A stretch of DNA of 64,000 nucleotides from Planctomycetota bacterium (GTDB taxonomy: Bacteria > Planctomycetota > UBA8742 > UBA2392), in assembly GCA_003576915.1 (NCBI GenBank), contig QEVF01000005.1, positions 124,001 to 188,000 on the forward strand. Reading direction: 5' to 3'. Shown piece by piece: positions 4,883 to 48,198 of the stretch (positions are counted from its first letter, which is position 1; each line of letters starts with the position of its first letter). The translations under genes and the position numbers were made by a program. Under the pieces are notes generated by a model. The model was given only the letters and a program-made list of their open reading frames with translations. It ran no database searches and was not told the origin of the DNA.

Positions 4883-7666
4883 ATGTCCCGCGTTCCCCCG
4901 CCCCAAGACGACGATGCACCGCATGAGGGCCAGGTTTTCGAGGAAGAAGACGAGGACCTCGATCTGAGCCTGGATGACGTCGCCCCTCTCGCCGAGACCG
5001 TCGAGCAGCGCCTTCTACGGGCCGCTGAACGTTCGCGCCGGTCGGCTCCGTCTCTGGCCGAGCGTATGAGGCAGGCCGCGGAGCGCGGCAAGGGCAAAGC
5101 CCACCACGAGGGCGATTCCCAGGTTCATGAAGTGGTGGAAGAGGAAGACGAAAGTCTTGGAGATATTTCGCTGGATGGTGATGGCGGCCATGAAGTCGTG
5201 GAGGAGCACGACGAGGACGTGGGGGATATCAGCCTCGACGATGTTGCGGCGCAGGCCGGACCGGAGGAGTTCAACCCCGACGCGCAGGCCTCGGAAGTGG
5301 GCGAGATCCAGGAAGGCTGGGACGATACGGAGGCCATTGAGCGCGCCAAGCTGGAGCAAATGAGGGGAGAGGCGGGGCCGGCGACGGTGGCGGACATGAA
5401 GCTGGACGCCATGGGCCTGCCCCCGGCCCCGGACATGCAGGCCGGCCCAATGACAATGGCCATACACGAAGCCGGTCAGAATCTGACACTGGGTCCGATA
5501 AGCGACACGGACCGGGGCGAAGACGTGGCGTCCGAGGACAGCGCCCCACTAGCCACTGGCGCAACGGACTCTAAGCTGGTAGATAGCAAGCCATTCGAAA
5601 CTATTGGGGAAGTCCCCGCGCAAGCGGAAGCGGAGCTGGAAAGTTCCGACTCTGATTCTTTGACGTCTGGTGAGGAGAGGGCGGGTTCCACCACGTTCGG
5701 CACTGGAGCCCTGAACAGCGGCGGCGACACGCTGACATTTTCGCGGGCCGATCTCGGGGGGCCCGTTGCGCCGGACCGCACCCTGACCTATGAGCGTGAT
5801 GAGACCGGGCGAATCGTGCGCAGCGACCACCTCGCGCGCCGCCTGACCGAAAACGAGGAACTGGCAGAGATTGCGCGCCGCGCCGACGATCAACGGCGCC
5901 GCAAAGAGGAAGAAAGGGAAGCGGCAGAACTTGCAAGGTTGGAGCAGGCAAGGGCCGAACAGGCCGAGAGGGAAGCCGCCGAGCAGCGCCGCCTCGAACT
6001 GGAGGCAGAAGCCGAGCGCCAGAGGCTGGAGCAGGAGGCAGAACAACTCAGGCAGCAACAGGAAGAAGAGCGGCGTCTGGCCGAGGAAGCCCGCAAGGCC
6101 GCGCAGGCGAGGGCGGAAGCCCAGAAGCGCAAGCAGGAGGAGGAGCGCAGGCGCCGCGACGAAGCGGCCCTGGCCGAGCAGCGCAGGGCCGAGGCGCTGC
6201 GGCAACAGGAGCAGGAGAAGGCGCAGCAGCGTGAAGCGAGGCGGCGCGCGGAAGAGCAGGCGGCGCGCCAGCGCGAACAGCAGGACGCGCGGGATACCTT
6301 TGAGCAGGAGCGGCGGCGCAAGAGCGCGGAGCAGGAAGGCATCAGGGTCGCGCAGGAGCACGGCAGCGAGTTTGAACGCGAAATGGCGGCCCGCCGCGAG
6401 AAGCACGCCAGGCGGCAGAGCGAGAAGGACAAGAACAAGCGCGCGGTGGAGCAGGAAATCGCGCGGCTGGAGGCGGAGCAGAAGACCCGCCGCGCCAGAG
6501 AGGCGAAGATAGAACAGGCTTGGGCGGCCCATGCCGCGAAAGGCCAAGGTCAGAACAACCCCAGGGTGGACGGGGGCAGGGTTTCCGGGACGGTCTCGGG
6601 CGGCCATGCTCAACCCGCGAACACCAAGGATTCACAGTCGGAGGTTTCTCTCGTGAGTGACGATTCTGGAGCGCCGCTGGGACGCGGCCTTGACGTGGGA
6701 ACGGCCAACCTGGTCGCTGCCCGCATGGACGCCGAAGGCGGCATTGAGTTCTTCCCCGCGCGCAACGCGTTCCTTGACGTGCCGGAAGACCCCTACACCC
6801 TGAAAATGTTGAAAAGCCAGGGCGTGCCGTACATCAAGCGCGAAAACAAGCTGTACGTCATCGGTCAGGACGCCTTTGAGCTGGCGAACATCTTCAACCG
6901 CGAAATGCGCCGCCCGATGAAGAACGGCCTGATCAGCCCCACGGACGCCGACGCCATGCCCATGGAGGTCGAGCTGTTCAAGAAGATTCTTGGCCCGCCG
7001 CGCGTGGACGGTGAAGCCTGCTATTACTCCATCCCGGCGGACCCGGTGGACAGCACGATGAACATCGTGTACCACACGAACATCGCCAACGGCCTGCTGC
7101 AGCGCCTGGGCTACAAAGGCACGCCCTTCAACGAAGGCCTGGCCATCGTCTTCTCCGAGCTCGGTGACGACGAGTTCACGGGCATCGGCATTTCCTGCGG
7201 CGGCGGCATGGTGAACGTGTGCGTGGCGTTCCGCTCGATGAACGTCATTTCCTTCTCGTCCGCCAAGGGCGGCGACTGGATTGACCAGCAGGCCGCGCAG
7301 GTCATGGGTTGCGCTGCCTCGCGCATCACTCACATCAAGGAGTCAGGCGTGGACATCAACGCGCCCAAGACCCCCGAAGAGGAAGCGATCGTCATCTACT
7401 ACCGCCACCTCATCAAGTACTCGCTCGAAAACATCATGAAGAAGTTCGCAATCACCAAGGACATCCCGAACTTCCCCAAGCCCGTGCCGATCGCGGTTTC
7501 CGGCGGCACATCGATGGTGGGCGGGTTCATCGAGGTGTTCAAGGACGAGTTCAGCAAGGTGTCGAAGAACTTCCCGATCAAGATCTCCGACATCCGCCGC
7601 GCCGAGGACCAGTTCAACGCCACGGCCAAGGGCTGCTTGCTTGCGGCCCTGAGCAACGAAGAATAG
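4883..7666 (+). CDS. Acidic-repeat/coiled-coil/actin-like ATPase
   Basis: A 927-residue three-part protein. Residues 1-110 carry three acidic repeats related to 'EEDESLGDISLDG'. Residues about 320-550 are an Arg/Glu/Ala/Gln-rich charged helix predicted to form a long coiled coil. Residues about 595-927 are an actin/Hsp70-fold ATPase: phosphate-1 motif GLDVGTANLV (D604), phosphate-2 motif GIGISCGGGMVNVCV and adenosine motif AVSGGTSMVGGF. The last domain has about MreB length but is not a standard MreB. An in-frame GTG with a GGAGG site lies at the domain boundary (see 6653). I chose the ATG at 4883 over a TTG at 4865. It is probably cytosolic and cytoskeletal; this is inference. A terminator-like hairpin follows. 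Confidence 0.8.
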   Translation: MSRVPPPQDDDAPHEGQVFEEEDEDLDLSLDDVAPLAETVEQRLLRAAERSRRSAPSLAERMRQAAERGKGKAHHEGDSQVHEVVEEEDESLGDISLDGDGGHEVVEEHDEDVGDISLDDVAAQAGPEEFNPDAQASEVGEIQEGWDDTEAIERAKLEQMRGEAGPATVADMKLDAMGLPPAPDMQAGPMTMAIHEAGQNLTLGPISDTDRGEDVASEDSAPLATGATDSKLVDSKPFETIGEVPAQAEAELESSDSDSLTSGEERAGSTTFGTGALNSGGDTLTFSRADLGGPVAPDRTLTYERDETGRIVRSDHLARRLTENEELAEIARRADDQRRRKEEEREAAELARLEQARAEQAEREAAEQRRLELEAEAERQRLEQEAEQLRQQQEEERRLAEEARKAAQARAEAQKRKQEEERRRRDEAALAEQRRAEALRQQEQEKAQQREARRRAEEQAARQREQQDARDTFEQERRRKSAEQEGIRVAQEHGSEFEREMAARREKHARRQSEKDKNKRAVEQEIARLEAEQKTRRAREAKIEQAWAAHAAKGQGQNNPRVDGGRVSGTVSGGHAQPANTKDSQSEVSLVSDDSGAPLGRGLDVGTANLVAARMDAEGGIEFFPARNAFLDVPEDPYTLKMLKSQGVPYIKRENKLYVIGQDAFELANIFNREMRRPMKNGLISPTDADAMPMEVELFKKILGPPRVDGEACYYSIPADPVDSTMNIVYHTNIANGLLQRLGYKGTPFNEGLAIVFSELGDDEFTGIGISCGGGMVNVCVAFRSMNVISFSSAKGGDWIDQQAAQVMGCAASRITHIKESGVDINAPKTPEEEAIVIYYRHLIKYSLENIMKKFAITKDIPNFPKPVPIAVSGGTSMVGGFIEVFKDEFSKVSKNFPIKISDIRRAEDQFNATAKGCLLAALSNEE
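6653..7666 (+). CDS. Possible internal start: free actin-like domain
   Basis: Inside the actin-like gene, an in-frame GTG at 6653 is preceded by the sequence GGAGG (6640-6644) with eight bases between, an excellent ribosome-binding site. It lies exactly between the charged linker and the ATPase domain. Initiation here would yield a 337-residue protein beginning MSDDSGAPLGRGLDVG, the size of a free MreB-like actin. The gene may therefore make both a long and a short filament subunit. The alternative is that a former separate gene has fused and kept its start signals. Translation from this site is unproven. Confidence 0.5.
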   Translation: MSDDSGAPLGRGLDVGTANLVAARMDAEGGIEFFPARNAFLDVPEDPYTLKMLKSQGVPYIKRENKLYVIGQDAFELANIFNREMRRPMKNGLISPTDADAMPMEVELFKKILGPPRVDGEACYYSIPADPVDSTMNIVYHTNIANGLLQRLGYKGTPFNEGLAIVFSELGDDEFTGIGISCGGGMVNVCVAFRSMNVISFSSAKGGDWIDQQAAQVMGCAASRITHIKESGVDINAPKTPEEEAIVIYYRHLIKYSLENIMKKFAITKDIPNFPKPVPIAVSGGTSMVGGFIEVFKDEFSKVSKNFPIKISDIRRAEDQFNATAKGCLLAALSNEE

Positions 7667-7690
7667 AATCCCCTTGCGGTTTCAGAGCCG

Positions 7691-7726
7691 AGCGCCCGGC
7701 CAAATCGCGGTCGGGCGCTTTGCTTT
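7691..7726 (+). terminator. Hairpin after actin-like gene
   Basis: An 11-bp stem with one G-T pair (7691-7701 with 7709-7719) is followed by the T-rich stretch tttgctttt. It lies between the actin-like gene and the next small gene, and may stop or attenuate read-through. Confidence 0.65.
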
Positions 7727-7760: not shown

Positions 7761-8378
7761 ATGGCTGACCTGGCTAAGCTCGCAAGCCTGTCCAAGCGGA
7801 TGAAGACGGCGACTCCCAAGAACGTGGACGACCGCACGGCTCCGGTAGCGCCTGACGAGCCGGACGCCGAGGGGCGCGACGAAACCGGGACGGCGACTTC
7901 TTCCGGGGCGACGGAGGCGGCTCCCGCCCCGGCTCGCACCACCGCGCCGGTCGCGCCTTCAGGCGGAGGCGGCGGGGGCCCGGTCACCGTGAATATTGAC
8001 CTCACTCCTCTGCGCAACATCCTCGGTGACATCCGCGATGGCATCAAGGACCTGACCGGGGAGATCCGCAAGATTCGCGAAAAAGGCAGCAAGGTCGGCT
8101 TTGACGACGGCGCCGTCGAGCTCGTCGATCAGGCGCTCAAGCACCTGAGTGCTTCAAGCAAGGCCAACCGCGAGCTGGCGGAGAAACTGGTCACCAGCAT
8201 GCCCGAGGCTCGCTGGTATGGCGAGCTTCAGGAACTGCTGCGCACCATCGGCGAGAACTTTGTTGCCGGCGGAGGAGGCGGCGGCGCAGCCAGCGGCGAC
8301 ATCACGGCCATCAAGGACCAGCTCGAGATGCAGAAGACGCAGCTCACGGCCATCCTCAGCATTCTCCAGAGAAGGTAG
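7761..8378 (+). CDS. Gly-linker helical protein next to actin-like gene
   Basis: A 205-residue protein with three parts. The N-terminal 70 residues are low complexity (Ala, Pro, Thr, acidic). A poly-Gly linker then leads into a helical region 'NILGDIRDGIKDLTGEIRKI' and a second helical stretch, and another poly-Gly linker precedes a C-terminal helix ending in LQRR. The ATG at 7761 has an AAAGGA site nine bases upstream; an in-frame TTG at 7674 lies before the hairpin and is unlikely. Position suggests a partner of the actin-like protein. The architecture (poly-Gly linkers joining helices) recurs in the protein at 46984. No family recognised. Confidence 0.75.
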   Translation: MADLAKLASLSKRMKTATPKNVDDRTAPVAPDEPDAEGRDETGTATSSGATEAAPAPARTTAPVAPSGGGGGGPVTVNIDLTPLRNILGDIRDGIKDLTGEIRKIREKGSKVGFDDGAVELVDQALKHLSASSKANRELAEKLVTSMPEARWYGELQELLRTIGENFVAGGGGGGAASGDITAIKDQLEMQKTQLTAILSILQRR

Positions 8379-8476: not shown

Positions 8477-9274
8477 ATGCCCACCCAGATTCATCCCACT
8501 GCCCTCGTTGACAAGTCCGCTCTGCTCGGCGACGGGGTATGCGTCGGTGCCTTCAGCATCGTTGAAGCCGGGGTGAAGATCGGCGCGGGCACCCTGATAG
8601 GCCACCACTGCGTGCTGGCCGGCCCCACCGAGATCGGCGAGAGAAATCGCATCAGCAACTTCTGCAGCTTCGGCGCGCCGCCGCAGGATCTGGGCTACAA
8701 GGGCGATCCCACGAAACTCGTCATCGGCAACGAGAACTTCTTCGGCGACTACGTCCAGCTTTCACGCGGCACCACCAAGAACGCGGACCTGACCACCCGC
8801 ATCGGCAACAACTGCTTCCTCATGGCCTATTGCCACGTGGGCCACGATTGCGTGCTGGGCGACCGCATCATCGCCGCCAATGCCGTGCAGCTGGCCGGCC
8901 ATGTCAAGGTCGAGGACAAGGTGGTCTTCGGCGGAACGGTGGCCATTCACCAGTTCTGTCGCGTCGGCAAGATGGCCATGGTCTCGGGGGGCAGCGTGAC
9001 GAGCCTGGACATTCCGCCCTACACGCGGGTGGGGGGCTGGGGTTGCGCCGTGTTCGGCCTCAATCTCATCGGCCTGGAGCGCAACGGCTACTCCAAAGCG
9101 CAGATCCGGAGGATCCGTGAGGCTTACAAGGTCCTGTTCCGCAGCGATGTTCCCTACGAGAAGGCGCTGGCATCGCTGGAGTCGGACTTCAAGGATTGCG
9201 AGCCGGCCCAGCACTGGGTCAGGTTCTTCCGCGAAAGTGACCGCGGCGTCGTGCGCGAGCGCGAGAACAAGTAA
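8477..9274 (+). CDS. lpxA: UDP-GlcNAc acyltransferase, lipid A pathway
   Basis: A 265-residue left-handed beta-helix acyltransferase that puts the first acyl chain on UDP-N-acetylglucosamine in lipid A synthesis. Hexapeptide repeats run through residues 5-190. The catalytic histidine is H123 in 'CHVGHDC', matching H125 of E. coli LpxA. The 'AGHV' and 'AIHQFCRVG' motifs and the C-terminal helical 'AYKVLFRS' region are also diagnostic. The length is typical. No other lpx gene is adjacent, though the gene is the best evidence here for an LPS outer membrane. Confidence 0.92.
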   Translation: MPTQIHPTALVDKSALLGDGVCVGAFSIVEAGVKIGAGTLIGHHCVLAGPTEIGERNRISNFCSFGAPPQDLGYKGDPTKLVIGNENFFGDYVQLSRGTTKNADLTTRIGNNCFLMAYCHVGHDCVLGDRIIAANAVQLAGHVKVEDKVVFGGTVAIHQFCRVGKMAMVSGGSVTSLDIPPYTRVGGWGCAVFGLNLIGLERNGYSKAQIRRIREAYKVLFRSDVPYEKALASLESDFKDCEPAQHWVRFFRESDRGVVRERENK

Positions 9275-46983: not shown

Positions 46984-48198
46984 ATGGCTGAGACTGCGCA
47001 AAATCCCGTCGATTACGCGAGCCTGATCAAGAATCAGACGCGGCAGATCGACATTGACGCCTTCAAAGAGCGCGGCCTCAAGAAGGTCAACGTCATCAAC
47101 GCCAAGAAGATCAATGAACTGATCTCTCAGGCGGTCACGAACATCATCGGCAAGATGGAGGGGTCGGGCGTTGATATCGCCCACATCAAGGAAGACAAGC
47201 AGCAGATCGTTCAGGACTCCATGGAGGAGTTCAAGCGCCTCTTTGCCGAGCAGAAGAAAGAGCAGGAAGGGCAGAACAAGCTGCAGGAGGAGCTGGCGGC
47301 CCTGCGCGAGCAGTTGACGCAGCGCAACGAGAGCCAGGCGGTGGTGGCCACCTCCCAGGTCTCGGACGAGATCGCCGAGCTCAAGGCCTTCATGATGAAC
47401 CAGGCGGCGCGCGCCCAGAGCGAGCAAATGACCCGCCAGGCCATGCTGGAACAGCAGCAGGAGTTCCTGAACGACCGTTTCTCTGAGTTGCGTGAAACTC
47501 TGGCGGCCCAGGGCAGCGTGGTCTCGCAGGTTTCGGCTTCCGCCAAGCTGGATGACGACACCCAGGCCGCCATCAAGGAAATGGCCTCCCAGCTCAAGCA
47601 GCTCGTTCAAATCTCGCGTAACACGGAAAAGGCCGTCACCGAGCAGAACGAGACCATCAACGACAAGCTGGGCGAGTTGCGGGAAGCCCTGGTGGGCACG
47701 GCCGGCGCCGAGCTGGCGGTGGCTGAAGTCGGCGGCACGGCCATCAAGAGCGTGCGGCAGATGATGTCGGACATGCAGGCCCACCTGGACAAGCGGAACG
47801 GACAGGACGAGCTGATCGCCACCATCAAGAGCGAGCTTTCGGGGCTTCGCGAAGAACTCAAGGACAAGCTGGTGGCCGCGGCCGACATCAAGGCCAGCGG
47901 CGGCGGCGGCGGAACGGCCAGCCCCGAAATGATGCAGGCCATGCGCGAGATGCAGGAGAAGATGTTCAGCGAACTCGCGGCGGCCGGCCTCATGAAGAAG
48001 CAGGTCAGTGCCAGCGAAGCCGTCGAGGTCTCCAACGTCATGGTCAATGCCGCGTTCAAGGGCATGGACGAAGTCGAGGTCAACCTCGGCAACATGGAAA
48101 AAGACCGCAAAGTGGACAAGGGCGCCGGTGTCGCCGCCAAGAAGGGCCTGGATGCCCTCAAGAAACTCAAGGGTGGCGGGCCCAAACCGGGCGCCTGA
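46984..48198 (+). CDS. Coiled-coil protein with Gly linker, cytosolic
   Basis: A 404-residue protein with no signal or membrane helix. The N-terminus 'IDIDAFKERGLKKVNVINAK' is followed by a small helical domain, then long coiled-coil segments (about 75-205 and 215-300). A GGGGG linker near 305 leads to a helical region and a Lys/Gly-rich end. The start, helices and poly-Gly linker resemble the design of the protein next to the actin-like gene at 7761. Function unknown; it may be a structural or filament-associated protein. A good terminator follows. Confidence 0.7.
   Translation: MAETAQNPVDYASLIKNQTRQIDIDAFKERGLKKVNVINAKKINELISQAVTNIIGKMEGSGVDIAHIKEDKQQIVQDSMEEFKRLFAEQKKEQEGQNKLQEELAALREQLTQRNESQAVVATSQVSDEIAELKAFMMNQAARAQSEQMTRQAMLEQQQEFLNDRFSELRETLAAQGSVVSQVSASAKLDDDTQAAIKEMASQLKQLVQISRNTEKAVTEQNETINDKLGELREALVGTAGAELAVAEVGGTAIKSVRQMMSDMQAHLDKRNGQDELIATIKSELSGLREELKDKLVAAADIKASGGGGGTASPEMMQAMREMQEKMFSELAAAGLMKKQVSASEAVEVSNVMVNAAFKGMDEVEVNLGNMEKDRKVDKGAGVAAKKGLDALKKLKGGGPKPGA

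Follow-up and report, generated by a model that had tools for sequence, protein, structure and literature searches.

A volactin-family actin gene of a planctomycetote with a long acidic N-terminal tail and a probable internal translation start

Bacterial actins are met here in an unusual setting: an actin-like ATPase at the end of a long reading frame, behind an acidic and highly charged N-terminal part. The question is what this gene makes and with which partner its product would work. The window, meaning the whole 64,000-nt stretch of DNA that was analysed, comes from a Planctomycetota metagenome assembly, and the genome collection used for comparison is likewise metagenome-derived and incomplete (87% for the window's genome). 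That an actin-like ATPase carries an N-terminal extension both long and unusual, as the original prediction had it from the letters of the sequence, is supported. The frame is intact, runs for 927 aa from an ATG and is present in one copy in the genome (G000, contig 33).

4883..7666, + strand: long ORF, 927 aa from ATG, with an acidic disordered region, an SAH-like helix and a volactin-family actin
6683..7648, + strand: Volactin (PF25216) actin domain, residues 601-922 of the long form, from the Pfam profile and the fold

The three predicted motifs of the actin fold were located in the last ~330 residues of the 927-aa protein: GLDVGTAN (6686-6709), GIGISCGGGMVNV (7181-7219) and IAVSGGTSMVGGF (7490-7528). 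They comprise the phosphate 1, phosphate 2 and adenosine motifs of the actin fold. The C-terminal region was searched against Pfam, as had been proposed, and matched Volactin (PF25216) with 274.3 bits against a gathering score of 35 (E 2e-81), covering profile positions 3-321 of 321, that is, the whole domain. An AlphaFold2 model of the actin built from an 18-sequence alignment was of modest confidence (pLDDT 64, pTM 0.60); Foldseek with this model placed MreB, MamK and FtsA on top and also returned actin, with E down to 2e-9 and probability 1.00. PilM and EutJ were, like FtsA, among the matches. The actin fold of the C-terminal domain is secure from sequence and fold together, and by its profile match the domain is a member of a named family, Volactin. 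Its namesake, volactin (VolA, HVO_2015), is a cytoskeletal actin of Haloferax volcanii that forms dynamic filaments and has a role in cell shape (PMC10869688). MreB provides the nearest solved structures by fold, yet the window protein has no match to the MreB Pfam family (PF06723) at E up to 0.1, nor to BeeR (NCBIfam NF053558) at the same limit, and it stays below the MamK cut-off (NCBIfam NF040964, 17.6 bits vs 400). A separate true MreB is encoded in the same genome (418 bits). The window actin presumably polymerises, and it may have a role in cell organisation or shape.

An unrooted tree of 55 rows, with MreB left out, was used to place the gene. The window's family forms one clade (100/99), sister to the free-standing actins of family f2 (99/99), and all volactin-family rows, haloarchaeal volactins included, are split from the planctomycetote MamK-like actins (100/100). 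The haloarchaeal volactins are plasmid-borne and 39% identical to the window actin over 98% of the domain. Volactin-family genes are present in 111 of 294 planctomycetote genomes. Many other volactins lie in long open frames that could be taken for fusions; in most of these the length is an artefact of high GC, and the real start lies close to the actin. Genuinely long volactins are those of f1, of f81 and of G280:C499. Family f81 (L088, L089, L090, L093) carries tandem volactin genes, short then long, the long one extended by an N-domain of ~150 aa and also at its C-terminus; in the tree, short and long copies fall into separate clades.

The N-terminal part of the window protein begins with acidic repeats, followed further on by a charged helix:

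4937..4984, + strand: acidic motif copy 1 (FEEEDEDLDLSLDDVA), residues 19-34, with a counterpart in other genera of the family
5126..5179, + strand: acidic motif copy 2 (HEVVEEEDESLGDISLDG), residues 82-99, whose SGRHEVVEED form is repeated in relatives
5189..5248, + strand: acidic motif copy 3 (HEVVEEHDEDVGDISLDDVA), residues 103-122
5843..6535, + strand: charged single-alpha-helix (SAH) like segment, residues 321-551, restricted to the window's genus

The three acidic copies that had been predicted are alike, with a shuffle p of 0.0005 for each pair. Related genera carry SGRHEVVEED-type repeats together with further short repeated motifs, for example GPMTMA and GDTER, and a search for the tail repeat motifs elsewhere in four family genomes gave no credible match outside the actin gene. 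The segment that had been taken for a 230-residue coiled coil is not confirmed as such. Residues 321-560 are 50% charged with 9% ILMVFWY, and pairs at i/i+3 and i/i+4 that could form salt bridges exceed shuffles by 5.4 sd. Heptad periodicity is weak, with p 0.02 over the segment as a whole and 0.07 for the best stretch of 70 residues in a sliding scan. Because the salt-bridge spacing is strong, the heptads are weak and ILMVFWY residues are few, this segment fits a charged single alpha-helix (ER/SAH) better than a coiled coil. The helix is found in the window, L032 and L033, all of one genus, and was not found in the family's five other genera, where the extensions are mostly acidic and disordered-looking; L034, of another genus, has a shorter lysine-rich stretch instead. 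The tail frame is open, stop-free and in frame with the actin in all 15 family genomes. Identity among relatives is 87-99% in the actin and as low as ~33% in the tail. Where computable, dN/dS of the N-terminal blocks was 0.10-0.22 against L032 and 0.18-0.26 against L033 (actin, same comparisons: 0.02-0.03), so the upstream frame is truly coding.

Between tail and actin lies a second candidate start site, which was not part of the original prediction (6640-6655); the same holds for the partner gene at 46984-48198 described below.

6640..6645, + strand: internal Shine-Dalgarno (SD) sequence GGAGGT, 8 nt before a GTG; all 15 of 15 family genomes have an SD match of 5 nt or more at this spacing
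6653..7666, + strand: putative short form, a 337-aa free-standing actin from the internal GTG (VSDDSGAPLGRG...), its start homologous to that of the free-standing sister L103, also a GTG

An in-frame GTG stands exactly 8 nt 3' of GGAGG in all 15 family genomes, which span six genera, and is placed two codons ahead of D[DE]SGAPLGRG. As a control, the other in-frame start codons of the upstream frames were scored, and just 8 of these 310 have an SD match of 5 nt or longer. The residues flanking the internal GTG differ between genera (SEVSLVS, EEVKLVA, PEGFTVA, PEVFTVG, PEESTVG), and the codons GAG and GTG, locally 38% of Glu and 36% of Val, are both invariant at the internal start. Between the window and L032, a run of ~63 identical codons spans this site, and codons upstream of it change at about 1 in 8. 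The free-standing gene of sister family f2 starts at the homologous GTG (VAQDKAPLGRG) with AAGGAG ahead of it. A promoter scan of the region found none. The long start at 4883 has no SD, and several other genes of the window's genome likewise lack one; SD use is thus mixed in this genome, so a long form from 4883 could still be made. The gene probably makes both a 927-aa and a 337-aa actin, although there may be little of the long form, or the internal start may be weak. Since a conserved internal start can release a free-standing actin, the gene is probably not simply a fusion. On the sequence evidence, the simplest account of its origin is that an upstream acidic frame became attached to a free-standing actin, which retained its ribosome-binding site; two proteins would result.

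Downstream of the actin, the gene order actin - small protein - lpxA is kept in the family, in answer to the gene-order comparison that had been proposed.

7690..7720, + strand: terminator-like hairpin just 3' of the actin gene, weak, with 12 pairs, 9 of them GC, and a T-rich tail
7761..8378, + strand: 205-aa family-specific protein that always adjoins the actin, with a conserved N-terminus (MADLAKLASLSKRMK)
8477..9274, + strand: lpxA (UDP-GlcNAc O-acyltransferase), a context gene

Sites resembling terminator hairpins are no more numerous in the region than expected by chance. The 205-aa protein is fast-evolving, found only in the window's family and always directly 3' of the actin; its N-terminus, MADLAKLA[SN]LSKR, is strongly conserved, and a C-terminal segment is conserved too. 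It had no Pfam or NCBIfam family above its cut-off. It was considered as a carrier of the tail motif of the adaptor described next: the full motif scores 1.3, and only a partial 8-mer, LAKLASLS, scores 9.5.

In many other Planctomycetota the gene directly upstream of volactin codes for a protein of some 230-800 aa that combines a conserved N-domain (DVRKVIEKSTSKVSLRELEKKGFRKVKVL...), a coiled coil and a conserved C-terminal tail of the form ESNI..VEVKE..GGV...L.KLK.LRGG; no Pfam family matched it. A member of this group is encoded in the window ~40 kb from the actin gene:

46984..48198, + strand: putative volactin adaptor, 404 aa, with a conserved N-domain, a coiled coil and a C-terminal tail; no Pfam family
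47005..47292, + strand: adaptor N-domain (profile A1), E 2e-18
48067..48195, + strand: conserved adaptor C-terminal tail (DEVEVNLGNMEKDRKVDKGAGVAAKKGLDALKKLKGGGPKPGA)

The central part of the window adaptor has a clear heptad signal (p 0.003), which argues that the true coiled coil of the system sits in the adaptor. An AlphaFold model of its N-domain was of low confidence (pLDDT 65, pTM 0.32). Among the 294 planctomycetote genomes, 94 have both volactin and partner, 17 volactin only, 36 the partner only and 147 neither; the partner is therefore found in 94 of 111 volactin genomes vs 36 of 183 others (Fisher p 4.5e-29, a value that is overstated since the genomes are related). The partner domain lies within 5 kb of 71 of 137 volactin genes, always on the same strand, 70 times upstream and once downstream (f2). 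That f2 adaptor, downstream of the actin (L103, L047:9001), seems to start at ATT, judged by the window adaptor. In G280:C499 (L091:513-2804) the N-domain, a coiled coil and a volactin are naturally fused in one 763-aa frame. The 17 volactin genomes without the partner belong mainly to one family, f28. There (L108, L110, L112, L124), the gene before the volactin-like actin, which overlaps the start of the actin frame, codes for a protein with an apparent membrane segment, and its C-terminal end is similar (LLDRVL.AM). Genomes of the window's family have one adaptor each, away from the actin. In f2 the partner still adjoins the actin and in other families it lies upstream, so loss of this adjacency and gain of the fused extension most likely took place in the window's family. 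From these associations, we infer that the window's coiled-coil protein is an adaptor binding the actin filament.

The adaptor tail was also compared with proteins adjoining volactins in other lineages. Its 12-residue core also scores in the neighbours of the Natrinema (13.0 bits, shuffle p 0.0015), Haloarcula (5.5 bits, p 0.05) and Omnitrophota L048 (6.6 bits, p 0.03) volactins, and of the volactin of G233 (L109; 14.2 bits, p 0.0025), where the carrier is a short protein with a hydrophobic N-terminus. The haloarchaeal plasmid volactins (L176:4980-5903, L177:4920-5828) are preceded by a DUF7139 membrane protein carrying a tail-like C-terminal motif. This fits the published contact of H. volcanii volactin filaments, by their tips, with the membrane (PMC10869688). 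A tail motif common to the bacterial adaptor and the haloarchaeal volactin neighbours is suggestive and not proven, because short motifs are weak evidence. The acidic repeats of the actin gene were considered as copies of the adaptor tail; this was not supported (best 12-mer 3.1 bits, p 0.68). Paralogues of the N-domain stand beside MamK-like actins in 9 of 20 further loci (L156, L160, L161, L163, L164, L165, L167, L168 and L175, with the adaptor-type gene directly beside the actin); two of the actins were scored, at 380 and 433 bits. The adaptor superfamily may therefore serve two actin families.

The reading preferred here, and considered probable, is that the window encodes a volactin-family cytoskeletal actin of which one gene gives tailed and plain subunits, with a separate coiled-coil adaptor binding the filament. 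The short 337-aa actin would form the filament, and the 927-aa form would co-polymerise as a minority subunit and decorate it with the acidic, motif-rich tail, which in the window's genus would be stiffened, largely disordered as it is, by the SAH-like helix. The tail could space the filaments and present binding partners with short linear motifs in repeated copies. Initiation at the two starts would determine the ratio of plain to tailed subunits, in the way known from CcmM (PMC8580825). Binding of the adaptor to the filament would most likely go through its conserved C-terminal tail, and the adaptor's N-domain would link the filament to cargo, the membrane or the chromosome. A broader reading is held more tentatively, as plausible but somewhat short of probable: a widespread, hitherto undescribed two-component system of Planctomycetota, in which a volactin-family actin is bound by an adaptor through a short C-terminal tail on varied carriers, and in which the window's family tunes the filament by tailed and plain subunits from one gene.

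Other explanations divide over what the gene makes and what the product does. If only the 927-aa form were made, the SD-like sequence would be a by-product of coding constraint, and tail and helix would be a fixed spacer or brush on every subunit. The stop-free frame in 15 genomes, the purifying selection on the tail and the single copy agree with such a fusion, but the SD and GTG are invariant while the residues they encode vary, GAG and GTG are locally minority codons, and the internal start is homologous to the true start of a free-standing sister; this explanation is considered unlikely. Equally hard to favour is one in which two overlapping products are mostly independent, the upstream ORF giving an acidic disordered protein with incidental read-through into the actin, and the short form being the sole working actin. 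All family genomes keep the tail in frame and stop-free, where, had the genes been separate, some lineages should have regained a stop; in its favour are the optimal SD at the internal start with none at 4883, and the very different rates at which actin and tail evolve.

The suggestion of the original prediction that a built-in coiled coil could cross-link filaments or anchor them to the membrane or DNA does draw on a real feature, as the window's genus has a long helical charged segment. It is not the best reading and has very little probability left, given the SAH-like composition, the weak heptads and the lack of the segment in 5 of 6 family genera. Just as improbable is an actin-fold ATPase that works independently of polymerisation, a regulator like FtsA, PilM or EutJ: these three do appear in the fold search, but the best fold matches are MreB and MamK, and the sequence family is Volactin, whose H. 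volcanii member forms dynamic filaments (PMC10869688).

Part of the predicted novelty stands: no description of the architecture was found in the open-access journal literature, whereas the actin domain itself belongs to the named family Volactin. The window actin shares its Pfam family with volactin, which is free-standing; neither a long acidic tail nor an internal start has been reported for volactin, while the window gene has the tail and a putative internal start; the neighbour on haloarchaeal plasmids is a membrane protein, and the bacterial partner is a coiled-coil protein. In the magnetosome system, the actins MamK and Mad28 are interaction partners of Mad25, a coiled-coil protein (PMC12748827). 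The MamK/Mad28 loci of deep-branching magnetotactic bacteria (PMC12748827, PMC12713370) thus likewise combine actin with coiled-coil proteins, a likeness of arrangement; by its NCBIfam score the window actin is not a MamK. BeeR, an actin of Verrucomicrobiota, also has a disordered N-terminal extension, which prevents filament bundling (PMC11929497), but this measures 30-50 aa vs ~590 in the window protein, and the similarity is one of resemblance only. Cyanobacterial CcmM follows the same logic in a scaffold, with long and short forms (M58/M35) made from one gene by an internal ribosome-binding site (PMC8580825); the protein is unrelated, and both forms were observed there, whereas those of the window gene are predicted.

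No FtsZ/tubulin-family gene was detected in 21 genomes (G000 to G023, the window's included), with 13 of 14 control genomes positive. To the question of how planctomycete cells are organised and divide, a volactin-family actin with a conserved partner brings a concrete candidate cytoskeleton. With volactin in more than one-third of the sampled genomes and a dedicated partner conserved, there are named parts to test. If the two forms are made, a ratio of decorated to plain actin set by internal initiation would be a new way of tuning a bacterial filament. If the tail motif is truly shared, it would connect the bacterial and archaeal volactin systems and suggest how haloarchaea hold volactin at the membrane.
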